A stretch of 64,000 nucleotides of DNA from Maribacter sp. PR1. Its GTDB lineage: Bacteria > Bacteroidota > Bacteroidia > Flavobacteriales > Flavobacteriaceae. The stretch lies in assembly GCF_028464145.1 (NCBI RefSeq), contig NZ_JAQPCG010000002.1, positions 496,001-560,000 on the forward strand, given 5' to 3'. Numbering within the stretch: position 1 is the stretch's first letter; each line of letters starts with the position of its first letter. Positions 24,706-54,647 of this stretch are shown piece by piece. The notes beneath the pieces were generated by a model that saw only the letters and a program-made list of their open reading frames with translations, made no database searches and was not told where the DNA came from. The translations under genes and the position numbers were made by a program.

Positions 24706-27120
24706 ATGTTCAAAAATCATCTAAAAATAGCTTGGCGAAATATTAAGAAGGACAAACTCTTTACCACCATTAAAATTGGTGGTTTTGCCATGGGGATTGC
24801 CGCCTGTCTACTTATTGCCATGTTTATTAGGAATGAACTAAGCTATGATGATCACTACCAGAATAAAGATAGAATTTTTAGGGTGGTGATGCAGGGCGTT
24901 ATGAACGGTGAAGTTTTGAAGAGTGTTCATTTTCAAAATCTTTTTGCCGAAACCCTAGAATCTACGTATCCTGAAATTGAAAAAGCAGGTAAAATCAATA
25001 CCAGTGAGCTCTTTGGGGCGGGAAGAAGAGCGTTTCGCGTTAAAGGGACATCTCAAAATAATTTTGAAGAGGGCTTCATCTTTGCCGACCAAGGTGCATT
25101 TGAAATATTGGAGTTCGATGTAAAGGAGGGCAGTCCTGATCAAGTACTGAGCAACCCAGGTAGTATTGTGATGACGGCCGAAAAGGCTGCTAAGTATTTT
25201 CCAAATGGTAATGCTCTTGGAAGTACTATTTTCCTTGATGACGATACCAGTAAACCATATACGGTTACCGGGGTTATCGATGAAAATCCTATGCAAAAAT
25301 CACATCTAGATTTCGACTTTCTTTTAGTAGTAGAAGATAAAAACACCAGTTGGACGACCACCAATTATTTCACCTATCTATTAGTTGATCAAAATACAAA
25401 TATTGCAACCTTAGAAAATAAAATGGCTGCAATATTAGAGGATTATTTTATACCGGCACAAGTAGAAAGAGGCGTGGGGGAAGATTTTATGGAGGTCTTA
25501 AAAACCTTAGAATATAAACTACAACCCGTTACGGACATTCACCTAAAGTCCGATATAAAAATGGGTGACCGGTTGAAACACGGTGACATACGGTTTGTCT
25601 GGCTCTTTGCGGCGATTGCCGGTTTCGTACTCTTATTAGCCATCATAAATTTTATCAATTTGTCCACTGCAAAATCAGCGAATAGGGCAAAAGAGGTAGG
25701 ATTGAGAAAAACGGTTGGCGCTTTTAAAAGTAATTTAGTAAATCAGTTCTTAACGGAATCGGTGATTTTTAGCCTTATTTCATTTGTATTGGGCATTTTA
25801 TTGGCGTGGGCCTTACTGCCAACCTTTAATTCAATCGCTGCTAAAAGTATCGTAATGCCATGGTCTGCATGGTGGTTCTTGCCTTTGTTATTGTTTGCGT
25901 CATTGTTTGTGGGGATTCTGGCTGGTCTCTACCCCGCTCTATACCTGTCTGCTTTTAAACCTGTCAATGTGCTCAAAGGAAATCTGAGCATCGGTAGTAA
26001 AAGTGGGAGTTTACGAAGTGGATTGGTCATTTTTCAATTTACCACATCCGTAGTATTGATTATAGGAACCCTAATTATCTACCAACAAATGAACTTCATT
26101 TTAGACAAGAAATTGGGTTATGATAAAGAACAGGTGCTTATGGTGCAAGGAGCCAATTTATTGAGCAATAATGTGAATACTTTTAAGGATAGATTATTAG
26201 GGCTATCGGAAGTAAAAAGTGTATCCGTAAGTGATTATTTACCGGTGGAAGGAACAAAGCGTAACGGCAATACTTTCAATAAAATAGGTGAAGGAGATCA
26301 AGAACGTGGCGTACCCGGTCAAATTTGGCGTGTAGATTTTGATTATATAAACACCCTTGGCCTTACTATGAACCAAGGGAGAGGTTTTTCGGAAGAATTT
26401 GCGAGTGACTCCTCGGCGATTGTCATTAACGCTGCTATGGCGAAAGAACTGGGATTTGACAATCCTATTGGAAAGCGGATTACTAATGGCCAGGAATGGA
26501 CGGTTATCGGGGTACTTGAAGATTTTCATTTTAAAAGTCTCAAAGAAGAAATTACACCATTAAGCTTGGTCATAGGTAATAGTCCTAGTATTGTATCTGT
26601 AAAATTAAATGCTGCCGCTACCACTTCGGCTTTGCAGGATATTGAAAAAGTTTGGCAAGAATATGTACCCAACCAGGCTTTTGAATACACCTTTCTAGAT
26701 CAAGAATTTACCCAAATGCACGATGATGTTCAGCGCGTGGGCAAAATATTCAACAGTTTTGCCTTGTTTGCCATACTGGTCGCTTGCTTGGGTCTGTTTG
26801 CCCTTTCTGCCTTTTTGGTGGAACAACGTAAAAAAGAAATCAGTATCCGGTTGGTTTTGGGCGCCCCTTTTAAAAGTATCTATCAATTGTTAACACTGGA
26901 CTTTATGAAGTTGATTCTAATTTCCATAGGTATCGCTATACCTATAGGATGGTATATGATGAACCGTTGGTTAGAAGACTTTGCGTATAGAATTACCATA
27001 GGATGGGGAATTTTTATCTCAGCTGCCCTCATAGCGCTTGCTATTGCAATACTTACGATTAGCTATCAATCCATTATTGCAGCATTGACGAAACCACTAA
27101 AAAGTTTGCGTACGGAATAA
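24706..27120 (+). CDS. FtsX/MacB-type ABC permease 1 of 12
   Basis: An 804-residue inner-membrane permease without ATPase motifs. Predicted layout, shared by the whole set: TM1 about 21-42, periplasmic MacB-like core about 45-290, TM2-4 about 295-410, TM5 about 435-460, second periplasmic core about 465-675, TM6-8 about 680-795 and a short basic tail. The first cytoplasmic coupling helix is AKEVGLRKTVGAF. The second, KEISIRLVLGAP, departs from the EIGxRKVLGA of most others, and the tail reads KPLKSLRTE. It has a strong AGGAGG ribosome-binding site 6 bases from the ATG, unusual in this window. Its N-terminal IRNELSYD resembles permease 4. Confidence 0.9.
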   Translation: MFKNHLKIAWRNIKKDKLFTTIKIGGFAMGIAACLLIAMFIRNELSYDDHYQNKDRIFRVVMQGVMNGEVLKSVHFQNLFAETLESTYPEIEKAGKINTSELFGAGRRAFRVKGTSQNNFEEGFIFADQGAFEILEFDVKEGSPDQVLSNPGSIVMTAEKAAKYFPNGNALGSTIFLDDDTSKPYTVTGVIDENPMQKSHLDFDFLLVVEDKNTSWTTTNYFTYLLVDQNTNIATLENKMAAILEDYFIPAQVERGVGEDFMEVLKTLEYKLQPVTDIHLKSDIKMGDRLKHGDIRFVWLFAAIAGFVLLLAIINFINLSTAKSANRAKEVGLRKTVGAFKSNLVNQFLTESVIFSLISFVLGILLAWALLPTFNSIAAKSIVMPWSAWWFLPLLLFASLFVGILAGLYPALYLSAFKPVNVLKGNLSIGSKSGSLRSGLVIFQFTTSVVLIIGTLIIYQQMNFILDKKLGYDKEQVLMVQGANLLSNNVNTFKDRLLGLSEVKSVSVSDYLPVEGTKRNGNTFNKIGEGDQERGVPGQIWRVDFDYINTLGLTMNQGRGFSEEFASDSSAIVINAAMAKELGFDNPIGKRITNGQEWTVIGVLEDFHFKSLKEEITPLSLVIGNSPSIVSVKLNAAATTSALQDIEKVWQEYVPNQAFEYTFLDQEFTQMHDDVQRVGKIFNSFALFAILVACLGLFALSAFLVEQRKKEISIRLVLGAPFKSIYQLLTLDFMKLILISIGIAIPIGWYMMNRWLEDFAYRITIGWGIFISAALIALAIAILTISYQSIIAALTKPLKSLRTE

Positions 27121-27143
27121 CTTCAAATTAAAAAACAAGGGAC

Positions 27144-29525
27144 ATGTTTAAAAACTATATCAAAATCGCTTGGCGAAATATTAAGGTTAATAGACTATTT
27201 TCCTTGATTAATATTATTGGTCTTTCCATAGGATTGGCGATTGTAATTCTCCTGTTTTTGTTCATTTCACATGAACAGAGTTTTGATACTATGTTCCCTA
27301 ATAAGGACAGAATTCATAGGGTTTTGGTAGAAACGGATGGTGATTTTGGTTATGAAACTTGGGCCTCTACACCTCCCGTTGTAGCAAGTAGTTTGCAAAA
27401 AGAAGTGACCAATGTGGAAAAGGCGGCTAGAATGCTGAAACATGATTTTGGGGGTACGGCATCATTACGTGTTAACGATGAGAATTTTACGGAGGATCGG
27501 TTCTATTGGGTAGATAAAGAGTTGTTGTCCATATTTGATATTTCCATATTAAAAGGAGACAAGGTAGGTGCATTGGATCGGCCAAATACGGTAATTATTT
27601 CGGAAACGACAGCACAAATGTATTTTGGAAACGACAATCCTGTTGGCCAAGTATTACTCGTTGATGGTAGCCGAAAGCTAGAGGTAACAGGAGTGTATAA
27701 GGATTTTCCTGAAAATAGCACCTTGGATGCCGATGTAATGGCCTCTAGTAATGGTTATTGGTTTTATGAGAATACGTCTTGGAGTAATTCTAGTTTCGAG
27801 ACCTATTGTCTACTAAAGAAAAATGTTTCTCTTGAGGCTACTTTGATTCAAGTGAGCCAAATGTTGGATGCCAACGTATCCAAAGAGAACCAATGGTACT
27901 CGCTTTCCCTGCAGCCTTTGAGTAACGTACACTTGCATTCTGCTTCTTTCGGCAATACCTATACCTCCCGTGTTGGGGATATCAATGAAGTGAGAAACCT
28001 GGGATATTTGGCGGTACTTATACTGTTGATTGCCTGCATGAACTATATGAACCTAACCACGGCACGATCTCAAAAGCGCTCAAAAGAAGTGGGTATCAGT
28101 AAAACCCTTGGCGCAACCTCTGGCTCTTTGGTAGGTAGGTTCTATATGGAAACCGGATTAATTACGGTCATTTCGATAGTGTTGGGCTTGCTTTTGGCAA
28201 CTATGGTATTGCCCGCCTTTAATGCCTTGACCGACCAAGAATTAAAATTTGACCTATTACTTACGGGTAAATTTTTTGCTGTCCTATGTGTAATTTGGGT
28301 CATAACTACTTTTATATCGGGAATATACCCAGCGCTTTATTTGTCCCGTTTCTTACCCAAAGAAATCTTATCCCCTTCCCTAAAACAGGGAAAAGGAAAC
28401 ATGGCGGTAAGAAAGGGATTGGTAGTACTGCAGTTTGCTGCTTCTGCATCATTGATTGTGGGCGTGTTGGTCATTTATCAACAAACGCAATTTATTCAAA
28501 ACAAGAATTTGGGTTTTGCTCCGGAAAACGTAATGGCCATATCCGTAAGGGGATTACGCGGAATGGAGAATCAAAGTGCTATGGTCCAGGAACTAAAGAG
28601 TTTAACCGATGTTACCTCGGTAGCTATGGCCCAAGGATATCCTAGTGTTGACGTAAGTGGACGTACCTTAAAAAAAAATCAATCGGATGAACATGGATTG
28701 AATATCCAGACCAATGTGGCCGATGCTGAAATAATCGATGTCTTAAATTTGAAACTTTTAGCGGGACAAGGACTTCCAATACATAAAAGTGAAGGCGATA
28801 CATTGGTGGAAGTTGTTCTGAACAAAAAAGCTATTGATTATTTAGGCTTTTCCCCTGAGGAAGCCATTGGCAAGGAGGTATATATTGGGGTTCCCAACAC
28901 CATTGTAGGCGTATTGAACGATTTTAACTATGAATCGTTACGCCAACCTATCGGTGCCTATGCATTTCATAATAATACCAGCGAAGGTAAATCCTTTATG
29001 TTGGTGCGCTTTAAATCAGGAAATATTTCCAATACCTTGTCGGGTTTAAAAATGGCCTTTAACAAAGTAGCTCCTGATCTAGATTTTGACTATATCTTCT
29101 TAGACCAGAATCTAGAGAATCTTTATGCACGTGAAAAAAGGGCCGGGCAAATAAGTATAGTATTCTGTATACTGGCCATTTTCGTGGCTGCCTTGGGCTT
29201 GTTCGGTTTGGCCGCATTTACTGCAGAGCAGCGAAGAAAAGAAATAGGTATACGTAAGGTTTTAGGTGCTTCGGTTGCCAGTGTAGCGCAGATGTTATCC
29301 AAGGATTTTGCAAAATTAGTATTCATTGCATTACTATGTGGTTTCCCCTTGGCCTATTGGCTTATGGAAAATTGGTTGGAAGGTTTTGCTTATCGCATAC
29401 AAATTCAGTGGTGGGTATTTGTCATATCTGCAATTGTAGCTTTGGGTATAGCCTTATTAACGGTCAGTTTCCAATCTATCAGGGCTGCACTGACCAACCC
29501 TGTAAAAAGTTTGCGAACAGAGTAA
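27144..29525 (+). CDS. FtsX/MacB-type ABC permease 2 of 12
   Basis: A 793-residue permease starting MFKNYIKIAWRNI, 23 bases after permease 1. The extracytoplasmic domain after TM1 begins HEQSFDTMFPNKDRIHRV and differs from both neighbours over most of its length. Coupling helices are SKEVGISKTLGA (Lys for the usual Arg) and RKEIGIRKVLGASVASV. The second periplasmic core ends FDYIFLDQNLENLYAREKRAGQ. The tail is NPVKSLRTE. No close paralogue is evident within the set, so it is an older branch. Confidence 0.9.
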   Translation: MFKNYIKIAWRNIKVNRLFSLINIIGLSIGLAIVILLFLFISHEQSFDTMFPNKDRIHRVLVETDGDFGYETWASTPPVVASSLQKEVTNVEKAARMLKHDFGGTASLRVNDENFTEDRFYWVDKELLSIFDISILKGDKVGALDRPNTVIISETTAQMYFGNDNPVGQVLLVDGSRKLEVTGVYKDFPENSTLDADVMASSNGYWFYENTSWSNSSFETYCLLKKNVSLEATLIQVSQMLDANVSKENQWYSLSLQPLSNVHLHSASFGNTYTSRVGDINEVRNLGYLAVLILLIACMNYMNLTTARSQKRSKEVGISKTLGATSGSLVGRFYMETGLITVISIVLGLLLATMVLPAFNALTDQELKFDLLLTGKFFAVLCVIWVITTFISGIYPALYLSRFLPKEILSPSLKQGKGNMAVRKGLVVLQFAASASLIVGVLVIYQQTQFIQNKNLGFAPENVMAISVRGLRGMENQSAMVQELKSLTDVTSVAMAQGYPSVDVSGRTLKKNQSDEHGLNIQTNVADAEIIDVLNLKLLAGQGLPIHKSEGDTLVEVVLNKKAIDYLGFSPEEAIGKEVYIGVPNTIVGVLNDFNYESLRQPIGAYAFHNNTSEGKSFMLVRFKSGNISNTLSGLKMAFNKVAPDLDFDYIFLDQNLENLYAREKRAGQISIVFCILAIFVAALGLFGLAAFTAEQRRKEIGIRKVLGASVASVAQMLSKDFAKLVFIALLCGFPLAYWLMENWLEGFAYRIQIQWWVFVISAIVALGIALLTVSFQSIRAALTNPVKSLRTE

Positions 29526-29536
29526 TACTGATAATT

Positions 29537-31954
29537 ATGAATAAGCTTTTTCTGAAAATAGCAACCAGATATTTACTAAAGAACAAACTGTATTCTTTTA
29601 TTAACATTTTTGGTCTAGCTATAGGCGTTGCTTCATTTATTTTCATCATGCTCTATGTAAATTATGAACGCAGCTATGATAGATTTGAGGGATCCGAAAA
29701 TGTTTATCGCGTTTATATGGATTATTTGGAAGGGGACGAATGGGTTCCAGGTGATGCTAACGCTTATATTGTAAGCGCGCCAACTTTAAAAGACGAGTTT
29801 CCTGAAATTATTGATTTTGCGAGATTAAGGCAAGTGCGAGATATTCTATTGCTCCAACAAAATGCTATTTTCGATCATTTAAAAGGGTCATTGACAGACC
29901 CTTCTTTTCTTCAAATTTTTGATTATAGCTTATCTCAGGGAGATGCCAGTACAGCACTGAACGAACCTTACTCCATTGTTCTTACCGAGGCTTTGGCTGC
30001 GAAGATGTTCGGTAAGGAAAATCCCTTAGGAAAAGCTCTAAAAATCTTTGACTCCAACAGTCCAAATTTTACGGTGACGGGAGTACTCAAAGATGATAAT
30101 CGTAACACCCACATTAAAAATGATTTTTTGGTTTCATTTAAAACCTTTTATACATGGGACGTCTTCGAAAGAGATTGGAAATATACATGGAACCAAAATA
30201 TGTACTTTACTTATATTCAAGTTGATCCAATGGCGAATGCCGTGCAGTTACAAAATAAAATCAAGAATTTTAAGGTCGACGGATTACTTCATGAACGGCA
30301 CAATATTGAACCGTTGGAAGATATTCACCTTTACTCCGATAAGCCCTACGAGGCCGAAGCCAATGGAAGTGCCAGTAGGATTACTTTCTTAATGGCCATT
30401 GCCCTTATCATCATCATACTTTCCTGGTTGAACTATATAAATCTTTCAACGGCCAAATCTTTGGAACGTGCCAAAGAAACGGGAATTAGAAAGGTCGCAG
30501 GAGCTTTAAAACCACAAATCATTTGGCAGTCGGTATTGGAATCGATGCTTCTCAATATCGTTTCAGTTATAATTGCCTTTTTAGTAGTGTTGGCTCTACT
30601 ACCTTTATTCAACAGCTACATTGGAAAAGACTTGTCAATTCATCTTTCAAGTTTAAAGGGAATACTACCTATGTTGGGTTTTGTTTTGTTCGGGAGTTTG
30701 TTATCGGGTCTATATCCCGCTTTCGTATTAAGCAAATATTCGCCGGCTAAGGCACTTAAAGGAAAAATACAAACTTCCGGAAACGGTCTTATTGTTAGAA
30801 AAGTTTTGATTATGGGGCAATTTTTGGCGACCATTGTTTTATTGATAGGCACGATTATCGTAACCAAACAAATCAAATTTTTAGGAAATCAACCTATAGG
30901 GGCCGACCTTAATCAGGTGGTTGCTTTAAACGGGCAAGTTTTAAATTCCATTCCGGACTCCCTATTTACCAATAAACTTGAAACCTTTAAAAAGGAACTT
31001 GTAAAATTTCCTTTTGTTGAAATTACGTCCCAGGCAGAGACGTATCCCGGTGATGGATATGATGAACTAAATTCCAATTCGGGGATTACGTTCCCTGATG
31101 GAACAAGAGATGATAAGCGAATTACATATAATTATGCAGTAGATCAGAATTATTTTGAACTGATGGATATCGAATTTATCGCCGGAGGGCCTTTCAGACA
31201 AAATTCTGAAGGAAACAGTACCGACATTGTAATGAACGAAAAGTTCGTAAGGTTTATGGGAATTTCCAATATGGAAGATGCCATAGATAAGACCGTTGAA
31301 TTTTTTGGTCGTGACAACACTATTGTAGGAGTCATAAAGGATTATCATCATTTTGGGCTCAAAACATCCATTGAACCTATGATATTACGTTATGATAAAC
31401 AAGGCTCCAATTTATTGGTGAAATTCAATGAAGAGGCTTCTTCTGTTTCTGGCATGACAGGAGCCATTGGACAGATTCAGGAAAAGTGGACCGGTCAATT
31501 CCCCCAAAGTACTTTCAATTACACTTTTCTCGACCAAAAGTTCGAGGCGCAGTACAAAGAGGACAAAGCCTTTGGTTCGGCCTTTCAGGTTTTTACCATT
31601 CTAGCAATTTTGATTGCCTCCATGGGGCTTTTTGGGTTGACTTCCTATACCGTTATACAACGAAGGAAAGAAATTGGAATTCGAAAAGTCAATGGTGCCA
31701 CTATCATCCAAATTCTCTCACTTTTAAATAAAGACTTTGTAAAATGGGTGGGACTTGCATTTATCATTGCCGTGCCAATCTCATGGTATGCCATGCACCG
31801 ATGGCTAGAGGGGTTTGCCTATAAGACAACCATGAGTTGGTGGGTTTTTGGTCTGGCTGGAATTTTGGCCTTAATTATCGCATTGCTGACTGTTAGTTGG
31901 CAAAGTTTTAGGGCTGCAGTGGCGAATCCTGTGGAAGCATTGCGGAATGAATAA
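29537..31954 (+). CDS. FtsX/MacB-type ABC permease 3 of 12
   Basis: An 805-residue permease. The open frame reaches back to 29336 inside permease 2, but the family N-terminus is at ATG 29537 (MNKLFLKIATRYLLKN), 11 bases after the previous stop. This is among the most divergent members. Coupling helices are AKETGIRKVAGAL and RKEIGIRKVNGATIIQI (Asn for Leu in VLGA). The tail is NPVEALRNE instead of NPVKSLRTE. The first periplasmic core contains SNPSFTVTG-like family text with an unusual KGSLTDPSFLQIFDYSL segment. Confidence 0.88.
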   Translation: MNKLFLKIATRYLLKNKLYSFINIFGLAIGVASFIFIMLYVNYERSYDRFEGSENVYRVYMDYLEGDEWVPGDANAYIVSAPTLKDEFPEIIDFARLRQVRDILLLQQNAIFDHLKGSLTDPSFLQIFDYSLSQGDASTALNEPYSIVLTEALAAKMFGKENPLGKALKIFDSNSPNFTVTGVLKDDNRNTHIKNDFLVSFKTFYTWDVFERDWKYTWNQNMYFTYIQVDPMANAVQLQNKIKNFKVDGLLHERHNIEPLEDIHLYSDKPYEAEANGSASRITFLMAIALIIIILSWLNYINLSTAKSLERAKETGIRKVAGALKPQIIWQSVLESMLLNIVSVIIAFLVVLALLPLFNSYIGKDLSIHLSSLKGILPMLGFVLFGSLLSGLYPAFVLSKYSPAKALKGKIQTSGNGLIVRKVLIMGQFLATIVLLIGTIIVTKQIKFLGNQPIGADLNQVVALNGQVLNSIPDSLFTNKLETFKKELVKFPFVEITSQAETYPGDGYDELNSNSGITFPDGTRDDKRITYNYAVDQNYFELMDIEFIAGGPFRQNSEGNSTDIVMNEKFVRFMGISNMEDAIDKTVEFFGRDNTIVGVIKDYHHFGLKTSIEPMILRYDKQGSNLLVKFNEEASSVSGMTGAIGQIQEKWTGQFPQSTFNYTFLDQKFEAQYKEDKAFGSAFQVFTILAILIASMGLFGLTSYTVIQRRKEIGIRKVNGATIIQILSLLNKDFVKWVGLAFIIAVPISWYAMHRWLEGFAYKTTMSWWVFGLAGILALIIALLTVSWQSFRAAVANPVEALRNE

Positions 31955-31977
31955 TAATCAATCAAAAAAAATTAATC

Positions 31978-34377: not shown

Positions 34378-34418
34378 TATTTTAAAACCCAATCCCCATT
34401 AGCAAAGTTGAGAGGTTG

Positions 34419-34432: not shown

Positions 34433-34458
34433 GCTCTAACCAACAAAAGAAGAGAACC

Positions 34459-39539: not shown

Positions 39540-41972
39540 ATGTTTAAGAATCACTTAAAAATAGCTTGGAGAAGTTTAAAAAAACAACCTGTTTTTACAT
39601 TTCTAAACACTTTTGGTCTTGCTATAGGAATGGCGGGAGCACTGTTAATCTCATTATATATCCATGATGAGTTAAGTTTTGATAAGATGTTTGCCGATGC
39701 CGAGCGTATTTATAGGATTGATACAGACATTAAATTTGGAGGGGCAGAAATGAGATCGGCCGAAGCAGCTGCCCCAATGGCCGCAACCATGCAGGGGGAT
39801 TTTGCACAGGTGGAATCTACCGTTAGGTTTCGAGATAGAGGAAGCCTATTATTAAGAAAAACTGGAACCGAGACCAATACAAAGGAATTAAGGGTATCAT
39901 TTGCCGATTCTACTTTGTTCGATTTTTTCGGAATTGATTTGTTAGTTGGTGATTCAAATACAGCTCTGGTAGAACCAAATACGATGGTGCTTACCAAAAC
40001 AGCCGCGGAAAAGCACTTTGGAATTGACAATGCGCTTGGGCAGACTATGTTGTTGAACAATAGTGATACATATACGGTTACAGGGGTTATTAATGATTTA
40101 CCAAAAAGTTCTTTTTTAAGGGACCATTCCGTTTTCATGGCAATGTCCGGTTATGCGGATGCCCAATTGATTCATTGGGGGAGTAACAACTATTATACGT
40201 TCGTAAAGCTCATTCCATCGGCAAATGTTGCTGACTTTCAAGAACCATTGGCCGGAATGTTCGATACCTACATGTTACCATGGGCGCAACAACACTTTCC
40301 TGGAATTACCAAAAAGTCTTTTATAGAGGCAGGTAATTATTTAAGATACCACACTATTCCACTTACGGACATCCACCTTTATTCCAATAAAGATTCCGAG
40401 ATGAGCGCGAACAGTAGTATTCAGAATATATACATTCTTTCTTTTATAGGTCTATTTTTGATAGTTCTGGCTTGTGTGAATTTTATGAATCTTTCTACAG
40501 CCTATTCTCTAAAGCGTGCCAAAGAGGTGGGAGTACGAAAAACGCTAGGCTCAAATAAGAGGGAATTGATCAGGCAATTTTTAACGGAGTCGTGCTTGAT
40601 TTCATTTATTTCTTTGTTGATTGCACTGGTACTTACTATTGTAGTACTTCCATTTTTCAATGAACTATCGGATAAAGCAGTGTCAATTCCTTTTACCGAT
40701 CCCATATTTTGGGTACTATTACTCATAGCTACCCTTCTGTTGGCATTACTTTCCGGAAGTTATCCTGCCTTTTTTATGTCAAAATTCAAGCCGGTTAAAA
40801 CCCTCAAAGGTGGAGCACAGAGTAATGTAGGAGGAGGAAATATTAGAAACGCCTTGGTTGTTTTTCAATTTACAATATCAATTTTCTTAATCGTAAGCAC
40901 ATTGGTCGTATTTCAACAGCTAAATTTTATACAGCGCAAAGATTTGGGCTTTTCCAAGGGGCAAATAGTTCTTGTTGAGGATGTTTTTGCGGTGGGAGAT
41001 AGGCTGGCGTCCTTCAAAGAAGAGATGTTAAAAATTGGTGATGTAGAAAATGCGACAATAAGTTACTATTTGCCAACGCCATCTTCAAGGTCTAATAGTT
41101 CTTATTTTAAGGAGGGAGCAATGACGCAAGAAAATGCCATACAGATGCAGACTTGGGACGTAGATCTTGACTATATTGAGACTTTAGGCATGGAGTTGGT
41201 AGCCGGTCGAAATTTCAATGAGCAATTTGCCACAGATTCTATAGCGGTAATAATCAATGAGGCAACCTTAAAGGTTCTGGGTATGAATGCCGATGAAGCA
41301 CTAGGAACCCGAATCTCCCAGGATATTGATCTAGAAAGGCCTCAATTCTATAAGGTTATTGGGGTGGTGAAAGATTTTCATTATGAATCTTTAAGGGAAA
41401 ATATCAGTGCACTTGGTCTTTTTTGGAATCAGACTCCAGGAGTATTGGCAGCGAAAATTAGCCCGGGTAAGTACAACGAAACCCTATTTGAACTTGAAAA
41501 TGTCTGGGAGACCTTTGCTCCGGGACAACCATTTAATTATCGCTTTATGGATGATTCCTTCAATACCACTTATGAAGCGGAGCGACGTTTGAGTAAAATC
41601 TTTATCATATTTACTATTCTTTCCATTTTTATAGCCTGTTTGGGATTATTTGGATTAGCTGCTTTTAATGCCCAAAAAAGAACCAAGGAAATTGGGGTTA
41701 GAAAAGTGATGGGAGCTACCGTAAGCCAGATTTCTTACCGGCTTACGGTGGATTTTCTAAAATTGGTAGGCATCGCCATATTTATTTCACTTCCAATAGG
41801 TTGGTATGCAATGAACCAATGGTTACAGGATTTTTCATATAGAATTGAAATAGCATGGTGGGTATTTTTATTGGCCGCGGTATTGGCACTAGGCGTTGCC
41901 ATATTAACGGTAAGCTATCAAAGTATTAAAGCCGCTATAGTAAACCCTGTAAAAAGTTTGCGGACAGAATGA
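39540..41972 (+). CDS. FtsX/MacB-type ABC permease 7 of 12
   Basis: An 810-residue tandem copy of permease 6, 15 bases downstream, starting MFKNHLKIAWRSLKKQP. Coupling helices are AKEVGVRKTLGSNKREL and TKEIGVRKVMGATVSQI. Where permease 6 has ADIKFGGDARKYAVTPAPM, this one has TDIKFGGAEMRSAEAAAPM: a preserved frame with changed periplasmic residues. The tail is NPVKSLRTE, and the DNA of that tail is almost the same as in permeases 2, 5 and 6. Confidence 0.9.
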   Translation: MFKNHLKIAWRSLKKQPVFTFLNTFGLAIGMAGALLISLYIHDELSFDKMFADAERIYRIDTDIKFGGAEMRSAEAAAPMAATMQGDFAQVESTVRFRDRGSLLLRKTGTETNTKELRVSFADSTLFDFFGIDLLVGDSNTALVEPNTMVLTKTAAEKHFGIDNALGQTMLLNNSDTYTVTGVINDLPKSSFLRDHSVFMAMSGYADAQLIHWGSNNYYTFVKLIPSANVADFQEPLAGMFDTYMLPWAQQHFPGITKKSFIEAGNYLRYHTIPLTDIHLYSNKDSEMSANSSIQNIYILSFIGLFLIVLACVNFMNLSTAYSLKRAKEVGVRKTLGSNKRELIRQFLTESCLISFISLLIALVLTIVVLPFFNELSDKAVSIPFTDPIFWVLLLIATLLLALLSGSYPAFFMSKFKPVKTLKGGAQSNVGGGNIRNALVVFQFTISIFLIVSTLVVFQQLNFIQRKDLGFSKGQIVLVEDVFAVGDRLASFKEEMLKIGDVENATISYYLPTPSSRSNSSYFKEGAMTQENAIQMQTWDVDLDYIETLGMELVAGRNFNEQFATDSIAVIINEATLKVLGMNADEALGTRISQDIDLERPQFYKVIGVVKDFHYESLRENISALGLFWNQTPGVLAAKISPGKYNETLFELENVWETFAPGQPFNYRFMDDSFNTTYEAERRLSKIFIIFTILSIFIACLGLFGLAAFNAQKRTKEIGVRKVMGATVSQISYRLTVDFLKLVGIAIFISLPIGWYAMNQWLQDFSYRIEIAWWVFLLAAVLALGVAILTVSYQSIKAAIVNPVKSLRTE

Positions 41973-44487: not shown

Positions 44488-44514
44488 GTAACAGTTTGTT
44501 TTTAGACTAGTCTT

Positions 44515-44622: not shown

Positions 44623-44670
44623 GTTGTAGAGCTAGAAGTGTTCATCAACCAGTGCCGATCGTAGTAGAAG

Positions 44671-47093: not shown

Positions 47094-47122
47094 AACAGCA
47101 TTAATCGGAACAATAAAAAATA

Positions 47123-49540
47123 ATGATTAAGAATTATCTAAAAATCGCTTGGCGAAACTTAATAAAGAACAAAGTATTCACTACGGCCAATATTGTAGGG
47201 CTGACTTTGGCTTTTACCGTAGCCATTCTTTTGGCGATGAACGCTTTGTTCGAATTGTCCTATGACCAGTTTCACAAGAATAAAGATTCCATTTATCAAG
47301 TATACGCTTCCGCTCAAACTCCAAAGGGTTCTGAGATTGCCCTATCTAAATCAGTGCCTTTTGCGCCTGCCCTAAAAGAAGAAGTACCTGGAATAAAAAA
47401 CATTGCGAGGGCACTTAGCACCAATGTCTTGGTAATTTATAAAGACAAGGAATTGAATTTAGATGCAGAATATCTGGATGTTGATTATTTCTCGATATTC
47501 AGCTTCCCTGTGGTGTTTGGGAATACGAGCAAGCCTCTTCAGGATAGGAATAGCATTGCCATTACAGAAAAAGCATCTAACAAATTATTTGGTACTAAAG
47601 ATGGTATTGGAAAAACCGTAAGATTAAAAATAGGAAAAGAAGAAAAACCATTTTCGGTTTCTGCGATTTTAAAAGATATTCCCAATAATAGCAGTGCTAA
47701 TTTTGACATCGCCATTCCCTTTGAGAACCATCGTGAATATGATGAAAATAAAGACGATTGGGATAGCCGTAACCATTCGGTTTTTTTACAATTGGAACAG
47801 GGTGTGTCTGTTGAACAATTTGAGGAAAGCACCGTTGAATTTTCAAAGTTGCACTTTAGAGAAGAAATAGAAAGTAGGGAACGTGATGGAGCGTTGCCCG
47901 ATGTCAATGGGCGTTACGTGCAGTTGAGTTTATTGTCATCTTCAGACAGACGATTTGCGTCTTTTGCAACCGGTGTGGTGCGCGTACAGCGCATCTTCCC
48001 GTATATGATATTAGGCATCGCTTTTTTAATCATTTTTATCGCATGTGCCAATTTCATAAATATGAATATTGCCTTAGGCGAAAAACGCCTTAAGGAAATA
48101 GGCATGCGGAAAACCCTAGGCGCCATTAAGGGGCAGTTATTCGTTCAGTTCTGGTTAGAGAGTTTATTGGTCTTTATGTTGTCTATTATTTTGGGTTTTA
48201 TATTGAGTAATCTACTGTTAGAACCCTTTAAGACACTGTTTAATTCCGAAGCTACTTTAGCTAATTTAATGTCACCTACTATTTTACTTGGTTTTCTATT
48301 GGGTATTTTGGCCATCACTTTTATTGCAGGTGGGTACCCAGCATTATTATTGAGCAGGTTGAATACGTTAAACGCGCTAAAGGGAAAATGGGAAATGGGC
48401 AAGAATGGGTTGCGGAATGTGCTTATTGTGGTGCAATTTGTCATTGCTATTATTTTAATAAGTGGCACTTTGGTTTTTCAAGGACAGATACAGTTTATGC
48501 GTAACAAAAACCTTGGCTACAACAAAGAACAAGTGGTGTCTATTCCCTTAAACGGAAAGAAAGATAGTTATCGTGTTATAGAATTGTTACGTAACGAGTT
48601 ACAAGGAAACCGAGATATCCTTAGTGTTAGTGGTGCAGATAATAACCTAGGGCGCGGTAGAGATGGTAGTGCGTCCACGAGTGTAATGGGGTTTGATTAT
48701 AAAGGGCGCGGGTTACGGACTAACGTACAAACAGTTGACTATGATTTTGCCAAGACCTTAGACCTTCAATTGGTAGCAGGTAGAATGTTCAGTAGGGAAT
48801 ATAGTGCCGATAGTTTGAGTATGGTCATCAATGAGGCCATGGTCAAAGAATTTAATGAGACGGAAAATCCCTTGGCAACACGTGTCTATTTTAATGAGGA
48901 TTCCGTAGCCTACTCGGTAATAGGGGTTATAAAGGATTATAATTTTAAGGATGTCAGTAGAAAAATTGAACCTTTAACCCTATTTCTTGACAGGAATTAT
49001 GATCTATACTATGCTTACATAAAAGTGGCGCCTACGAATATTACCGAATCCTATGAAGCGATCAAGAGGGCATGGCAAACCGTGGAACCCAATGCCGAGT
49101 TTATAGGTTCTTTTTTAGATGAAAATGTGGACCGTACGTTTAGGCGGGAAAAAACAATGGCTACCATTATCACCAGTGGTTCTATTTTGGGTATTGTGCT
49201 CAGTTGTATCGGCTTGTTCGCCATGTCATTATTGGTAGTTGCCCAACGGACCAAAGAAATCGGCATCAGAAAAGTCATAGGTGCAAGTGTTTCTTCTATT
49301 ACACTTTTATTGACCAAAGACTTTTTAAAACTAGTAGGTGTTGCCTTTGTTGTCGGAACTCCTATTGCTTGGTATGCTTTGGATAGGTGGTTACAAGAGT
49401 ATGCGTTTCATGTTCCCTTGAGTATGTGGTTCTTTATAGGAGCGGGGTTTTTAGCCGCCTTGATTGCCTTGATAACTGTGGGAACAAGAACAATAAAAGC
49501 CGCAGCTGCGAACCCCGTAAAAAGTTTAAGAACAGAATAA
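47123..49540 (+). CDS. FtsX/MacB-type ABC permease 10 of 12
   Basis: An 805-residue permease, sister to permease 12 although permease 11 lies between them. Shared features are YASAQTPKGSEIALS versus YSVWQNPKGPQVSVS after the first core start, VPGIKNIARAL versus VPGIKKATRHL, and FLDENVDRTFRREK versus FLDENINRTFRKEE. Both also have GGYPALLLS after TM4 and EIGMRKTLGA in the first coupling helix (Met for Val or Ile). The second coupling helix is TKEIGIRKVIGASVSSI. It starts 29 bases after permease 9; the tail is NPVKSLRTE. Confidence 0.9.
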   Translation: MIKNYLKIAWRNLIKNKVFTTANIVGLTLAFTVAILLAMNALFELSYDQFHKNKDSIYQVYASAQTPKGSEIALSKSVPFAPALKEEVPGIKNIARALSTNVLVIYKDKELNLDAEYLDVDYFSIFSFPVVFGNTSKPLQDRNSIAITEKASNKLFGTKDGIGKTVRLKIGKEEKPFSVSAILKDIPNNSSANFDIAIPFENHREYDENKDDWDSRNHSVFLQLEQGVSVEQFEESTVEFSKLHFREEIESRERDGALPDVNGRYVQLSLLSSSDRRFASFATGVVRVQRIFPYMILGIAFLIIFIACANFINMNIALGEKRLKEIGMRKTLGAIKGQLFVQFWLESLLVFMLSIILGFILSNLLLEPFKTLFNSEATLANLMSPTILLGFLLGILAITFIAGGYPALLLSRLNTLNALKGKWEMGKNGLRNVLIVVQFVIAIILISGTLVFQGQIQFMRNKNLGYNKEQVVSIPLNGKKDSYRVIELLRNELQGNRDILSVSGADNNLGRGRDGSASTSVMGFDYKGRGLRTNVQTVDYDFAKTLDLQLVAGRMFSREYSADSLSMVINEAMVKEFNETENPLATRVYFNEDSVAYSVIGVIKDYNFKDVSRKIEPLTLFLDRNYDLYYAYIKVAPTNITESYEAIKRAWQTVEPNAEFIGSFLDENVDRTFRREKTMATIITSGSILGIVLSCIGLFAMSLLVVAQRTKEIGIRKVIGASVSSITLLLTKDFLKLVGVAFVVGTPIAWYALDRWLQEYAFHVPLSMWFFIGAGFLAALIALITVGTRTIKAAAANPVKSLRTE

Positions 49541-49568
49541 GCTCGGTCAATAAAAACTGGAAATATGT

Positions 49569-52016
49569 ATGTTTAGAAACTATTTAAAAATTTCCTTCAG
49601 AAACATATGGAAGAACAAGGTTTTTTCCTTCATCAATATTTTAGGTCTTTCCATTGGCTTAAGTGCTGCCTTTGTCATCGGGGCCATGGTATATTACGAT
49701 CTTTCTTTTGACAAGTTCCATCCAGACGGTGAACGTATTTATAGAATAACGACTTCATTTAAAAGTCCAAGTGGAGAATTTTATAATGCAGGAGTAACCG
49801 TGCCCTTGGCTCAGGAATTACATAATATGGAAATGTCGGAACTAGAGTCCGTAGCACCATTTTTTACGGCATACCCACTATATGTAGAAAATCCGGAAAC
49901 AGGAAATAAATTTAAAAGACCGGACTTCGTAATTTATACGGATGATTCATACTTTAAAACTTTTGAATATGAATGGCTTGCGGGAAATGAACAAAAGGCA
50001 TTGCAAGCGCCTAATAAAGTCGTTCTATCCGAACAAAGAGCAAAGAAATATTTCCCAAATGAAGAGCTAACAAATATAATTGGAAAATCAATTGTATATC
50101 AAGACACCATATCCACAACGGTTTCTGGCATTGTAGCAAACTTTGAGGATCGAACGGATATTGTTTTCGAGGAATTCATTTCTTTAAAAACAGGTATCAC
50201 CCAAGACATTACCAATACAATGGAATCTGGTTGGGACAACACCAACTCCGCTTCTCAGTTGTTTATCAAGCTTACAAAAAATGGAAGTTCGGCTGACGTG
50301 CAAAAAACCTTAACAAGAATAGCCAAGGAACACGATAATCCTGAAATGGTAGCTGAGGGTAGAACGAATACCTATACCATGCAACCCTTGGCCGACATTC
50401 ATCTAAATCCATTGTACGGTACATTTGATTTTAATGACAGCCGAACCACAATCTCCGCTTTAAACAGTTTGCTTTTGCTGGCCGTTATTCTCATAGTTCT
50501 TGGATGTATAAATTTCATAAATTTAAATACGGCCCAAGGAATACAGAGGTCCAAGGAAATAGGAATTAGAAAAACGCTCGGAAGCTCCAGAATTCAGTTG
50601 GTATTTCAATTTTTAGGAGAAACCTTTTTGCTTACTTCCGTAGCGGCCATTCTTTCCTTCTTTCTATCCAAATGGCTATTGTTACTATTTTCTGATTTTA
50701 TTCCTCAAGGACTTACATTCGATATATTTTGGAACCCATGGGTGCTTATTGGTGTAATATTTTTATTGGTTTTGGTGACTTTATTATCCGGGTTTTATCC
50801 AGCCCTTATATTATCAAAATACAAACCGGTATCTGTTCTAAAACAACAAATTATACCCAATTCAGATAAGGGAACAATGCGCAAGTATCTTACCATTTTC
50901 CAATTTGTAATCGCCCAGGTGTTTATCATTTCCACTGTACTTGTAGGTAAACAACTAAACTATGTTATGAAAAAGGACATGGGGTTTAAAACGGAGGCCA
51001 TTGCCTATTTTAGAACCCCTTGGCGCGATGTCTCTTACGATAAAAGAAAACGATTTGTAAAGGAAATAAACAATCTTCCGGGTGTCACGGAAGCAGTTCT
51101 GTCCGGAAATCCTCCAGCATCTTTTACTACGATGAGTATGGGGGTTACATACCATAAGGGTGATAACGAAGTAAATTCGGATATACAGTTGTTATATGGT
51201 AATCCCGAATTTTTCAATTTGTATGATTTAAAACTGTTGGCTGGCAGAATGCCTTTAAACGATTCTATAAGAGAATACGTGGTGAACACCTCCTACTTAA
51301 AAGTTATAGGAATTAGTGATCCCATGGATGCATTGGGTAAAACTTTTAAAGCGAATAATGAGGATTTGCCCATTGTGGGTGTTATGGAAGACTTTAACCA
51401 GCATTCACTAAAATATGGTGTCTCTCCTATGGCATTTACGGGAAGCTCATACACCGATAAATGGACCCAGTTTAGAACCATTCATTTCAAATTGAGCAAT
51501 TTGGAAAGAAGCGACTGGTCACAAACCATTGGTCAGATTGAAGCTATTTGGAAAGACATATATCCTGATTCTGATTTTGAATACACGTTTATGGATGACA
51601 CCGTAAAACGGTTTTACGAATCCGAACGAAAAACATCTATATTACTTCAATGGGCAACGGGTTTAGCTATTCTCATCAGTTGCCTTGGTTTGTTTGGACT
51701 TGTTATTCATACAACGGAGCGGCGTATAAAGGAAATAGGTATTCGTAAAATTCTGGGAGCATCTGTGGTTCAATTGAACATATTGCTATCCAAAGAATTT
51801 TTAAAATTGGTCCTTATTGCTTTCATAATTGCTACTCCTATCGCATGGTACGGACTTAATCACTGGTTGGAAGGTTTCACCAACAAAACTGGGTTAAGCT
51901 GGTGGATTTTTGTATTGAGCGGGTTATCGATGATGTTTATCGCATTAGTAATCATGAGTGTAAAAACAGTATCCTCTGCAAATACAGACCCAGTTAAAAA
52001 CCTGAGAATAGAATAG
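49569..52016 (+). CDS. FtsX/MacB-type ABC permease 11 of 12
   Basis: The longest member, 815 residues (MFRNYLKISFRNIWKN). An overlapping ATG at 49565 is out of frame. Coupling helices are SKEIGIRKTLGSSRIQL and IKEIGIRKILGASVVQL. The tail DPVKNLRIE deviates from the common NPVKSLRTE. The periplasmic cores (for example YPLYVENPETGNKFKRPDFV) are unlike those of its neighbours, so it separates the related permeases 10 and 12. It ends unit C. Confidence 0.9.
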   Translation: MFRNYLKISFRNIWKNKVFSFINILGLSIGLSAAFVIGAMVYYDLSFDKFHPDGERIYRITTSFKSPSGEFYNAGVTVPLAQELHNMEMSELESVAPFFTAYPLYVENPETGNKFKRPDFVIYTDDSYFKTFEYEWLAGNEQKALQAPNKVVLSEQRAKKYFPNEELTNIIGKSIVYQDTISTTVSGIVANFEDRTDIVFEEFISLKTGITQDITNTMESGWDNTNSASQLFIKLTKNGSSADVQKTLTRIAKEHDNPEMVAEGRTNTYTMQPLADIHLNPLYGTFDFNDSRTTISALNSLLLLAVILIVLGCINFINLNTAQGIQRSKEIGIRKTLGSSRIQLVFQFLGETFLLTSVAAILSFFLSKWLLLLFSDFIPQGLTFDIFWNPWVLIGVIFLLVLVTLLSGFYPALILSKYKPVSVLKQQIIPNSDKGTMRKYLTIFQFVIAQVFIISTVLVGKQLNYVMKKDMGFKTEAIAYFRTPWRDVSYDKRKRFVKEINNLPGVTEAVLSGNPPASFTTMSMGVTYHKGDNEVNSDIQLLYGNPEFFNLYDLKLLAGRMPLNDSIREYVVNTSYLKVIGISDPMDALGKTFKANNEDLPIVGVMEDFNQHSLKYGVSPMAFTGSSYTDKWTQFRTIHFKLSNLERSDWSQTIGQIEAIWKDIYPDSDFEYTFMDDTVKRFYESERKTSILLQWATGLAILISCLGLFGLVIHTTERRIKEIGIRKILGASVVQLNILLSKEFLKLVLIAFIIATPIAWYGLNHWLEGFTNKTGLSWWIFVLSGLSMMFIALVIMSVKTVSSANTDPVKNLRIE

Positions 52017-52056
52017 CGTCATTTTCTTTTAAATCCTACGTTCTTAATCAATGTAT

Positions 52057-52095
52057 TGTCAACATATTTTACATTTTTTGTAAAAATGTTAGACA
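52057..52095 (+). promoter_or_regulatory. Paired 17-bp activator palindromes, site D
   Basis: TGTCAACATATTTTACA (52057-52073) and TGTAAAAATGTTAGACA (52079-52095), centres 22 bp apart, inner centre 63 bp before the GG of promoter D. The sequences are more diverged than sites B and C while the geometry is unchanged, which argues for selection on spacing. Confidence 0.75.
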
Positions 52096-52148
52096 GTGAC
52101 GAATACTTGTTTAATTATAATTAATTCATTTTCAAATTGTTAATCTTT

Positions 52149-52164
52149 TGGCATGGTAATCGAT
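52149..52164 (+). promoter_or_regulatory. Sigma-54-like -24/-12 promoter D
   Basis: TGGCATG-GTAA-TCGAT; the -24 half is a good match, but the -12 dinucleotide is GA, the weakest of the five. The leader contains CATCAATCAAAAAAT before permease 12. Confidence 0.5.
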
Positions 52165-52232
52165 TTCTATATAATCCAGCAAGACTAGAATAATCATATC
52201 ATTACTTTGCATCAATCAAAAAATGAAAAATC

Positions 52233-54647
52233 ATGTTTTACAATTATTTAAAAACCACGTGGCGTAGTCTTCTTAAAAACAAAACTTTTACAATTCTAAA
52301 CGTCTTTGGATTGTCCGTTGCTTTCGGTGTTGCCATTCTATTGTCCATGGCGGGTTTTTTTGATTTATCATATGATAAATTTCATACCAATGCCCAGGAT
52401 ATTTATAAGGTCTACTCCGTATGGCAAAACCCTAAAGGCCCTCAAGTAAGCGTAAGCCATGCCGCTCCATTAATGCCTGCTCTAGTGGAAGAAGTGCCGG
52501 GTATAAAAAAGGCTACCCGCCATTTGCAGCAGGAAGCGGTACTTACCTATGACGAAAAAGAAATTAATATGGATGCCATTTGGGTCGATGCAGATTTCTT
52601 CGAAATGTTCACGTTTCCCGCTATTTCTGGAAAAATAGACAATCCTTTGGAAAACCAATCCGATATAGTCATTACCGAAGGAACGGCCAAAGCATTGTTC
52701 GGGACTGAGGATCCCATTGGCAAAACGATACAAATTCTTATTAATGGCAGAGACCAGCCTTTTACAGTTGGAACCGTTGTTGGAAATACACCATCGCAGA
52801 GTATATTGGATTTTGAAGTTGCCGTTCGGTTCGAAAAAGATGCAGAATATTTAGAAAATAAAAATGAATGGGGTGCAAGATATCATGATGTATACGTGCA
52901 ATTGTCTGAGAATGTGGAATCAAGCGAGTTTGATAAGGCAACCCGTTCCTTGGTCAGCAATAATTTTGAAGAAAGAATAGCTAATGCCAAGCGCGATGGT
53001 GCCCAGCCGGATGCCGATGGTCTTTATTATAAGTTTGAGCTTTTACCTTTATTGGATGAAAATTTTGCGACGTTCCGAAATGGATATGTCGAAGTGAGTC
53101 GAGGTAATGCCTATTTAGTATTGGGTGTTGCTTTTTTAATTCTTTTTATCGCTTGCGTCAACTTTATTAATATGAGTATTGCTCGAAGCGGGCAAAGGTT
53201 AAGAGAGATTGGCATGCGTAAAACACTGGGAGCAAGACGCAAACAGCTTTTTTTTCAATTTTGGACCGAAAGTGTACTTGTATTTGTTTTTTCCGTTGGA
53301 ATCGGTTTAATGATAAGCGCTTTGTTGATTGATGAATTTAAAACAATTTTTAGAACGGATGTCTCTTTTGGACTGGTCTTGACTCCAATAAATATCTTAT
53401 TTTTTGTATTTGCTATTCTCATAATAACCTTAATAGTAGGAGGGTATCCAGCTTTACTTTTGAGTAAAATGGGAACCATTCAATCTTTAAAAGGAAAATT
53501 GGATGTCTCCGGTAAGAATAGGGTTAGGGATGCTTTAATGGTCTTACAGTTCGGGATTGCCATTTTAATGATAACAGGGACATTGGTTTTGCATAGTCAG
53601 TTGGATTTTATGCGTAATAAAGACCTTGGATTTAATAAAGAACAAGTACTTTCCTTTCCATTGGACGGTAAAAAGAATAGCTATGATGCTTTGGAACTAT
53701 TACGAAATGAATTAGCTGGTAATCCGGACATCCTAGAAATTTCGGGAGCCGACAATAATCTAGGATATGGAAAAGATGGTAGTGTTTCAAGTAGTATGTT
53801 CGGTTTTGAATACAAGAACAGGATAATCAATACAAACTATTTGACGGTCGATTATGACTACGTAGAAACATTGGATTTGGAACTAGTAGCTGGTAGGAAC
53901 TTTAACAGGGAATTCGCAAGTGACAAGTCTGGGGCAGTTATCAATGAGGCGATGGCCAAAGAGTTTGGGGAAGAGGACCCGTTGACGGCATATATTAGTT
54001 TTAATGATTCATTACGCTTTCCGGTAATAGGAGTAGTCAAAGATTACCATTTTGAAAAATTGGATAAGACCATAGCACCCATCACCATGATGATGAGTCG
54101 TGATTATGATTTGTACTATGCTTACGTTAAAGTAGCCCCGGTCAACTTGGCAAAGTCCTACGATGCCATCAAAAGTGCTTGGGCGAAGATTTCTCCCAAT
54201 TCTAAATTTTTAGGTTCGTTTTTGGATGAAAACATAAACAGGACCTTTAGAAAAGAGGAGCGGGTGACCACTATGATCACAAGTGGATCCATACTTGCAA
54301 TTGCCTTGAGTTGTATAGGTCTTTTTGCAATTTCGCTATTGATTGTTAATCAACGCACCAAAGAAATTGGTGTTAGAAAAGTAATAGGTGCCAGTGTGGC
54401 CAATATTGCTTTTTTATTGACGAAGGACTTTTTGAAATTAGTTGGGGTATCATTTTTAATTGCATCCCCATTAGCTTGGTGGTTTATGAAGGAATGGTTG
54501 GAGAATTATCCGTTTAAAATTGACCTTAGTCCCATATTTTTCCTTGGAGCTGGGTTGTTAGCGGCCGTAATAGCTTTGTGTACAGTTGGTGCCAGAACGA
54601 TTAAAGCTGCGATGGGAAATCCAGTAGATTCATTAAGACAAGAATAG
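52233..54647 (+). CDS. FtsX/MacB-type ABC permease 12 of 12
   Basis: An 804-residue permease and first gene of unit D, beginning MFYNYLKTTWRSLLKNKTFT. It is the sister of permease 10 along its whole length, with the second core carrying the same DNNLG-GKDGS-SS and DYDLYYAYVKVAP stretches. Coupling helices are LREIGMRKTLGARRKQL and TKEIGVRKVIGASVANI. The tail reads NPVDSLRQE, with two changes from the common form. A hybrid kinase gene follows after 216 bases. Confidence 0.9.
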   Translation: MFYNYLKTTWRSLLKNKTFTILNVFGLSVAFGVAILLSMAGFFDLSYDKFHTNAQDIYKVYSVWQNPKGPQVSVSHAAPLMPALVEEVPGIKKATRHLQQEAVLTYDEKEINMDAIWVDADFFEMFTFPAISGKIDNPLENQSDIVITEGTAKALFGTEDPIGKTIQILINGRDQPFTVGTVVGNTPSQSILDFEVAVRFEKDAEYLENKNEWGARYHDVYVQLSENVESSEFDKATRSLVSNNFEERIANAKRDGAQPDADGLYYKFELLPLLDENFATFRNGYVEVSRGNAYLVLGVAFLILFIACVNFINMSIARSGQRLREIGMRKTLGARRKQLFFQFWTESVLVFVFSVGIGLMISALLIDEFKTIFRTDVSFGLVLTPINILFFVFAILIITLIVGGYPALLLSKMGTIQSLKGKLDVSGKNRVRDALMVLQFGIAILMITGTLVLHSQLDFMRNKDLGFNKEQVLSFPLDGKKNSYDALELLRNELAGNPDILEISGADNNLGYGKDGSVSSSMFGFEYKNRIINTNYLTVDYDYVETLDLELVAGRNFNREFASDKSGAVINEAMAKEFGEEDPLTAYISFNDSLRFPVIGVVKDYHFEKLDKTIAPITMMMSRDYDLYYAYVKVAPVNLAKSYDAIKSAWAKISPNSKFLGSFLDENINRTFRKEERVTTMITSGSILAIALSCIGLFAISLLIVNQRTKEIGVRKVIGASVANIAFLLTKDFLKLVGVSFLIASPLAWWFMKEWLENYPFKIDLSPIFFLGAGLLAAVIALCTVGARTIKAAMGNPVDSLRQE

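Follow-up and report, generated by a model that had tools for sequence, protein, structure and literature searches.

Twelve related transporter genes standing side by side raise the question of whether each encodes a pump of its own or whether all are parts of one machine. The question is posed by a locus of Maribacter sp. PR1, lying in a stretch of 64,000 nt (NZ_JAQPCG010000002.1, positions 496,001-560,000) that is referred to as the window throughout. Here, twelve intact open reading frames (ORFs) on the same strand, P1 to P12, occupy positions 24706-54647 and encode permeases of the ATP-binding cassette (ABC) type. We consider this block to be probably the variable half of one sigma-54-controlled tripartite type VII ABC exporter with exchangeable permeases. 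As judged from gene content, a constant frame encloses a changing set of duplicated permeases, and it consists of a histidine kinase (HK), a sigma-54 enhancer-binding protein (EBP), a TolC-like outer membrane protein (OEP), an adaptor (MFP), the ATPase ABC1 and in most cases a second ATPase, ABC2. An original prediction for this DNA had seen in the array a multi-permease transport or sensing system rather than twelve independent pumps. The notion of one system is supported by the single frame of ATPase, adaptor and TolC-like protein, by one EBP, by one type of regulatory site and by coupling helices that are conserved far above the periplasmic domains, while a physical complex and a sensing role stay proposals.

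The permeases

All twelve proteins contain the MacB_PCD and FtsX domains, with no further Pfam family at E<=0.001, and thus belong to the type VII (MacB/FtsX) ABC permeases. With starts placed at the conserved N-terminus they measure 792-815 amino acids. Number, strand and size had been predicted correctly, as evidenced by the ORF list, the translations and the Pfam matches; the eight transmembrane helices were recovered by hydropathy in 12/12 cases, and Walker A and LSGG motifs are absent from all twelve, which sets them apart from MacB-like fusions with an ATPase. The predicted sequence motifs fared less evenly. The N-terminal pattern M(F/I/L)xN(Y/H)xKI(A/S)(W/F)R is found in ten permeases but not in P3 and P12, and the tail NPVKSLRTE, expected in most, is exact in eight. 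Two EIGxRK coupling helices occur in the strict form in only four of the twelve, but a relaxed motif, E[TIV][GS]x[RS][KL], is present twice in every one.

Pairwise identity among the twelve paralogues ranges from 28 to 64% (mean 34%) and is distributed unevenly along the chain. With domain borders set by the analyst, the two coupling-helix regions reach mean pairwise identities of 57 and 61%, the two periplasmic domains only 24 and 26%. In the MacB-type fold the coupling helices contact the ATPase, according to the available text of PMC8277102, and conserved helices combined with divergent outer faces are therefore the pattern to be expected for many permeases served by one motor.

A structural model was built for P9, the only permease used for this purpose, from an alignment of 19 of its 26 relatives of the same type with the twelve window permeases (predicted local distance difference test 82.1, predicted template modelling score 0.75). 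Its best whole-length match was YbbP (Z 24.4, root-mean-square deviation (rmsd) 10.0, 657 residues), followed over shorter stretches by a permease domain of P. gingivalis, 3is6 (Z 21.2, rmsd 3.1, 220 residues), BceB (Z 20.1, rmsd 4.2, 340 residues) and MacB (Z 14.9, rmsd 4.5, 359 residues), so that the model places P9 in the predicted type VII fold. LolE/LolC and FtsX folds were also among the matches, and they are what speaks for Lol- or FtsX-like work, that is, lipoprotein extraction or motion passed to cell-wall enzymes instead of the expulsion of compounds. Lol and FtsEX systems, however, are not known to have an adaptor or a TolC-like partner, and we regard this alternative as very improbable.

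Outside the array, the genome of Maribacter sp. PR1 (4.73 Mb, 23 contigs) holds one MacB-type frame of 888 amino acids (contig C8) and six frames of 415-425 amino acids, four of them near C1:0.30 Mb, one at C12:0.563 Mb and one at C1:0.123 Mb. A DarD-like ATPase adjoins three of these four places (C8, C1:0.30 Mb and C12:0.563 Mb), a finding that we count in favor of the exporter; none is listed beside the permease frame at C1:0.123 Mb.

The frame and its conservation

HK and EBP are encoded divergently from OEP, MFP, ABC1 and a DUF2807 protein, and a hybrid kinase and ABC2 lie downstream of the permeases. The limits predicted for the array, 24706-54647, thus hold for the permeases, but as the extent of the system they omit 17528-24690 and 57487-58152. 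The features of the window are:

17528-18946, minus strand: HK with two transmembrane helices, a 4-residue loop, PAS and HATPase domains; the ORF start is possibly too early
18876-20240, minus strand: EBP, an NtrC-type response regulator and sigma-54 activator (Response_reg, Sigma54_activat, HTH_8)
20306-20344, no strand: paired palindrome of the frame promoter, the proposed EBP site
20408-20421, plus strand: sigma-54-type promoter 5' of OEP
20451-21797, plus strand: OEP, TolC-like outer membrane protein with an OEP domain
21818-23068, plus strand: MFP, HlyD/DarC-like adaptor with an HlyD_3 domain
23134-23829, plus strand: ABC1, DarD/MacB-type ATPase
23863-24690, plus strand: secreted DUF2807 protein, accessory
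24706-27120, plus strand: permease P1
27144-29525, plus strand: permease P2
29537-31954, plus strand: permease P3
31978-34377, plus strand: permease P4
34459-36837, plus strand: permease P5
36909-36947, no strand: paired palindrome 5' of P6
37001-37014, plus strand: sigma-54-type promoter 5' of P6
37089-39524, plus strand: permease P6, of a near-constant type
39540-41972, plus strand: permease P7, clustering with P6
42011-44440, plus strand: permease P8
44515-44553, no strand: paired palindrome 5' of P9
44607-44620, plus strand: sigma-54-type promoter 5' of P9
44694-47093, plus strand: permease P9, of a near-constant type, structure modelled
47123-49540, plus strand: permease P10
49569-52016, plus strand: permease P11
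52057-52095, no strand: paired palindrome 5' of P12
52149-52162, plus strand: sigma-54-type promoter 5' of P12
52233-54647, plus strand: permease P12
54864-57251, plus strand: 7TMR-DISM hybrid sensor kinase, accessory or unrelated
57330-57368, no strand: paired palindrome 5' of ABC2, with two mismatches
57421-57434, plus strand: sigma-54-type promoter 5' of ABC2
57487-58152, plus strand: ABC2, second ATPase and 3' border

From a genome scan with the adaptor, the best 80 of 353 relatives were kept as loci, mostly from Maribacter or other Flavobacteriaceae, with one from a Cytophaga sp. ABC1 was present in 80/80 and the TolC-like protein in 78/80 loci, EBP and HK in all 76 with sufficient room upstream and a permease in all 75 with room downstream. 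Where EBP and OEP could both be placed, the palindrome pair was found in 74 of 75 loci and a sigma-54-type match in 71. The whole locus was fetched for 20 named genomes among the 80, which together with the window gives the 21 loci used below. In all 21, ABC1 carries the signature LSGGQQQRVAI; that of ABC2 reads LSGGQQQLVGVAR in 16 of 18 loci, and LVGIAR and VVGVAR in the remaining two. A detached unit in Eudoraea (L128, C1:245000-253000) combines a P9-type permease (78% identity) with an ABC1-type ATPase (80%) and has no palindrome pair; from its sequence, it would agree with a pairing of P9 and ABC1.

The EBP combines a receiver, a sigma-54 AAA+ domain and a Fis-type helix-turn-helix, as is characteristic of a sigma-54 enhancer-binding response regulator. 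The loop that usually reads GAFTGA in such proteins is G[AS]FTDA in 35 of 37 rows, which include one duplicate genome. In the kinase, two transmembrane helices are separated by a loop of just 2-7 residues in 24/24 distinct sequences from Flavobacteriaceae and of 4-8 residues in nine of eleven more distant ones (kinases and EBPs below 430 amino acids were dropped from both comparisons). Such a very short loop is typical of intramembrane-sensing kinases and of Bce-type modules. Together with the presence of BceB among the best folds for P9, it lends some weight to a sensor array, in which Bce-like permeases signal the presence of envelope-active compounds to the loop-less kinase, the whole set is induced and transport is secondary. 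The adaptor and the TolC-like protein in the frame unit nevertheless argue for transport, and the kinase has a PAS domain. In addition, the P9 type is missing from two and the P6/P7 type from one of the 21 arrays, so that there is no universal permease partner for the kinase, and we hold this explanation to be unlikely.

Palindromes, promoters and regulon

In the window, the same arrangement recurs in four gaps: two TGT-N11-ACA palindromes spaced by 22 bp and followed by TGGCATG. A search pattern built from these sites, with up to two mismatches allowed, matched five places in the 4.73 Mb genome, all of them at this locus: the four gaps, exactly, and a fifth place upstream of ABC2 that deviates at two positions, against 0 in the control. 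Across 20 other genomes there were 45 match rows in 18 genomes, palindromes often being counted on both strands, again with 0 in the control. All 45 rows fall into the gap between EBP and OEP, lie before internal permeases or ABC2, or stand 115-176 bp upstream of three solitary permeases that are located on other contigs.

A palindrome matrix, trained on 41 seed sites from the same sequences, yielded 47 sites, namely 21/21 frame promoters, 18 before internal permeases, three before ABC2 and five at the ten solitary permeases, and none inside the matched genes or in three Markov controls. All 47 are followed downstream by TGGYA, which lies 51-53 nt away at 14 sites and 62-64 nt away at the other 33, two spacings that differ by one helical turn, and the -12 positions are occupied by T in 46 and by G in 45 of the 47. 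In shuffled stretches, TGGYA occurred at these spacings 4.7 times on average and 12 times at most (n=300). All 47 sites are thus predicted -24/-12 promoters with an upstream activator site, and rpoN is present in the genome of Maribacter sp. PR1. Taken alone, TTGGCATG was unconvincing in the window, with 6 found versus 2.36 expected and 4 of 100 shuffles reaching 6, and only its pairing with the palindromes convinces. Note that a second TGGCA or TGGTA is located 23 nt past the first in 18 of 21 OEP promoters (position 20431 in the window), but in 0/26 of the other promoters.

The prediction of sigma-54 promoters at such permeases has precedent. An in silico study from 2025 (PMC12316311) found permeases of COG0577 to be enriched for predicted sigma-54 promoters in Bacteroidia and called this the first evidence. 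The available part of that article contains no EBP, binding site, frame or array, and its main text has 0 occurrences of the words 'tandem' and 'gene cluster'.

Turnover of the permease repertoire

The number of permeases per locus, counting ORFs of at least 700 amino acids only, varies widely among the 21 loci: one locus each has one, two, three, six and twelve, three have four, three have five, four have seven, four have eight and two have 15. M. halichondriae contains 15 as well as several shorter, broken-looking pieces. Together with those at ten solitary places, the permeases of the 21 loci number 151 and form 43 clusters, 22 of them singletons (average linkage at a mean identity of roughly 52% or above). 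The P9 type occurs in 19/21 and the P6/P7 type in 20/21 arrays; the remaining types are sporadic, and gene order is reshuffled between loci. For every one of the twelve window permeases the nearest relative resides in another genome (62-94% identity) rather than in its own array (32-64%), and the array is therefore not a fresh tandem duplication. Nor is it likely to be an assembly artefact, since comparable arrays are found in the complete chromosome of M. halichondriae and in the single-contig genomes G288 and G202.

The nearest relative compared, G288, shares ABC1 at 99% and adaptor and EBP at 97% identity with the window. Partners of at least 80% identity nevertheless exist for only four of the twelve window permeases and four of the 15 in G288; between M. 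ulvicola and G282, the figures are 6/6 and 6/10. (G286, the same as M. flavus, and G291, with frames broken throughout the locus and probably poorly assembled, were left out of the partner comparison.) At the DNA level, G282 has one extra permease exactly between two genes common to M. ulvicola. Window and G288 are alike across the stretch 3' of P5, where the window has a promoter, and across some 40 bp of the following gene, the remainder of which is not shared. The edges of gain and loss fall at gene ends, as would fit an exchange of whole genes.

Synonymous divergence (dS) between the window and G288 is 0.38 for P2, 0.83 for P5 and 1.16 for P6, with P1 and P9 saturated, and it extends from 0.63 to saturation in twelve frame and flank genes. 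Between G288 and M. flavus, dS is 0.23 for P1, 0.46 for P6 and 1.31 for P9, versus 0.97 or more for frame and flank genes. We read the low values of single permeases as pointing to later transfer or conversion of individual genes. An initial picture of very recent turnover had to be toned down in view of the dS of the frame between the window and its nearest relative compared. The ratio of nonsynonymous to synonymous substitution (dN/dS) is 0.02-0.11 in eleven permease pairs, one of them saturated, with periplasmic and membrane parts alike under purifying selection, and positive selection on the periplasmic domains is thus unsupported.

Variable copy number, the broken copies in M. halichondriae and a broken ABC2 in M. 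ulvicola might also reflect independent pumps that use unrelated ATPases, or the neutral amplification of idle copies. A low dN/dS in all pairs where it was computable, a common promoter signal and the closer kinship of all twelve permeases to relatives in other genomes are evidence to the contrary, and we consider this account improbable.

Distribution in the phylum

Of 148 genomes drawn from the phylum, 41, including that of Maribacter sp. PR1, have the adaptor (E<=1e-40), and among 120 genomes sampled within the family the permease profile has hits in 38 (E<=1e-100). Wider regions were fetched for 11 of the 41, hand-picked; two of these share the family of Maribacter sp. PR1, five its class and four its phylum. 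HK and EBP are divergent from adaptor and ATPase in 11/11, with identities of 28-33% for HK, 46-53% for EBP, 36-42% for the adaptor and 67-73% for the ATPase. Two of the 11 have an extra gene between EBP and adaptor, and G176 has a permease between adaptor and ATPase. Permeases adjoin the frame in nine of the 11, and G186 and G188 carry 23 and 7 permease matches elsewhere. Some Bacteroidota genomes hold at least a dozen to two dozen such genes among the matches listed. A comparable abundance is given in the accessible part of PMC11573002, with 28 and 33 copies of the 'acidobacterial duplicated orphan permease' (ADOP) in two Dyadobacter genomes.

The palindrome matrix from Flavobacteriaceae found nothing in the 11 more distant genomes. 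Their sites read TGT-CG...CG-ACA, a form that was spotted by eye and scored afterwards. Promoter scores of at least 21 were obtained for 5/10 frame upstream regions, for 5/15 regions in G186 and for 1/16 in five other genomes, with 99th percentiles of 21.6 in 138 gene-internal windows and 20 in 820 shuffles. As the score was written after inspection, the result leans towards the claim.

Comparison with known systems

In its anatomy the system resembles a tripartite exporter of the DarBCD/MacAB type, but we do not assign it to either. NCBIfam models were scanned against P6, P9, P11 and the frame proteins. DarBCD (NF038008, NF038010, NF038007) likewise combines an adaptor, a free ATPase and a duplicated permease, and its DarC and DarD models are the ones that fit MFP and ABC1 best. 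However, their scores of 211.5 and 299.9 bits stay below the cut-offs of 450 and 375, and the DarB model reaches only 175.4 (P6), 103.5 (P9) and 147.7 bits (P11) where 700 are required. DarBCD has one permease.

This likeness leads to the explanation that the array is a secretion machine in which every permease releases a cargo of its own that the cell has made, be it a peptide, a lipopeptide or a lipoprotein, in the manner of DarBCD, Aat or Cex. A TolC-like duct is encoded in the frame unit, and relatives in E. coli secrete defined proteins, as set out in the available sections of PMC8277102. Yet among 30 neighbor proteins scanned, between 10.9 and 63.8 kb, there was no precursor or maturation gene, very short ORFs not having been searched, and eight of the eleven gaps between permeases measure 81 bp or less, leaving no room for cargo genes there. 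Secretion of this kind therefore appears rather unlikely.

The best full-length match of P6, P9 and P11 is ADOP (TIGR03434; E 1e-76 to 1e-95), with 321.2, 291.2 and 258.6 bits, respectively, against a cut-off of 622.3. As the array permeases are flanked by ABC1 upstream and ABC2 downstream and accompanied by an adaptor, they are not orphans. ADOP genes, too, occur in many copies per genome elsewhere (PMC11573002, in the part available). With MacAB-TolC the window has adaptor, TolC-like duct and type VII fold in common, but permease and ATPase are separate and each locus has 1-15 permeases, whereas ATPase and permease of MacB form one chain. YbbAP shares the duplicated permease and the separate ATPase, but is not known to have an adaptor or duct; the YbbP model NF041854 gave 28.9 bits for P11, versus a cut-off of 999, and left P6 and P9 unmatched at E<=1e-4. 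Bce modules (BceAB with BceRS) have the FtsX-type fold and a kinase without an extracellular sensor domain in common with the window; theirs is, however, an OmpR-type regulator with one permease, and they are not known to have an adaptor or duct. The MacB-like permease, separate ATPase and TolC-like protein of AatPABCD and CexPABC in E. coli are found in the window as well, while a single permease and a known secreted cargo distinguish them, a comparison drawn by description only from part of PMC8277102. The sigma-54 regulons of PMC12316311 share permease class and predicted promoter type, in the part of that work that is available.

The original prediction knew of no functional description of such an array. 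Searches of open-licence PMC papers brought up none either, though PMC12316311 and PMC11573002 do touch on related permeases, and the system is not described in the available parts of PMC9723704, PMC10434189 and PMC10942906.

Accessory and neighboring genes

Seven of the 21 loci have the DUF2807 gene along with the array, its position in the gene order varying. The 7TMR-DISM hybrid kinase lies within the array border in two cases, the window and M. flavus (71%); it had no match in the other 19 fetched loci. Directly beyond ABC2, on the opposite strand, adjacent PIN-like and DUF433 genes (58162-59219) are possibly a toxin-antitoxin pair; in BLAST searches the DUF433 protein was absent from most fetched loci. 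Within the window, a search of Rfam gave nothing at gathering scores and no tRNA was found.

Proposed mechanism and implications

In the exporter that we favor, the EBP would bind to the paired palindromes, and sigma-54 polymerase would read frame, permease units and ABC2 together. Each permease, as a pseudo-dimer, would use its two conserved coupling helices to dock onto the common ATPase, and all would work with one adaptor and one exit duct, the docking of the adaptor being something that we infer. The divergent periplasmic domains of each permease may decide what is handled, and the kinase, lacking a periplasmic sensor, may respond to the membrane, to a permease or to a cue from the cytosol. 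Between species, the repertoire would shift as whole permease genes are gained, lost or transferred. Our guess for the role is protection of the envelope by the expulsion of a range of membrane-active compounds.

Several points weigh against this reading. ABC2 was not found beside three of the 21 arrays, those of Pseudozobellia and bin181 and that of M. ulvicola, where it is broken. The PAS domain of the kinase might itself be the sensor. Two of the 20 other genomes had no match to the palindrome pattern, with the matrix finding one site in each, and five of the ten solitary permeases are without a site, one of the five sites present being weak. Outside Flavobacteriaceae, the promoter evidence is mixed. 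Finally, it is from conservation and gene content that we infer an ATPase shared by the array permeases. A division of labor in which each ATPase serves one half of the duplicated permease was also weakened, by the same three loci. In M. ulvicola (L093) the DNA of ABC2 is kept, at 86.5% identity to G282, and an in-frame stop interrupts the reading frame.

More tentatively, and with somewhat less confidence than doubt, we extend the proposal to the phylum as a whole: a toolkit exporter with a fixed motor, adaptor and duct, one sigma-54 activator and a membrane-listening kinase, whose open-ended set of permease heads may be exchanged horizontally in units of entire genes, at some positions downstream of an unchanged promoter, altering what the cell expels or senses while the machine stays as it is.

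Many permease genes of Bacteroidota thereby gain a likely partner in the frame of ATPase, adaptor and TolC-like protein, a likely regulator in the EBP, and a readable site and promoter. Many heads on one motor is a logic that can be tested, and a motor common to up to fifteen permeases would, if true, be out of the ordinary among exporters. Where related species differ in their repertoire, the locus would then record the envelope-active compounds that each of them meets.

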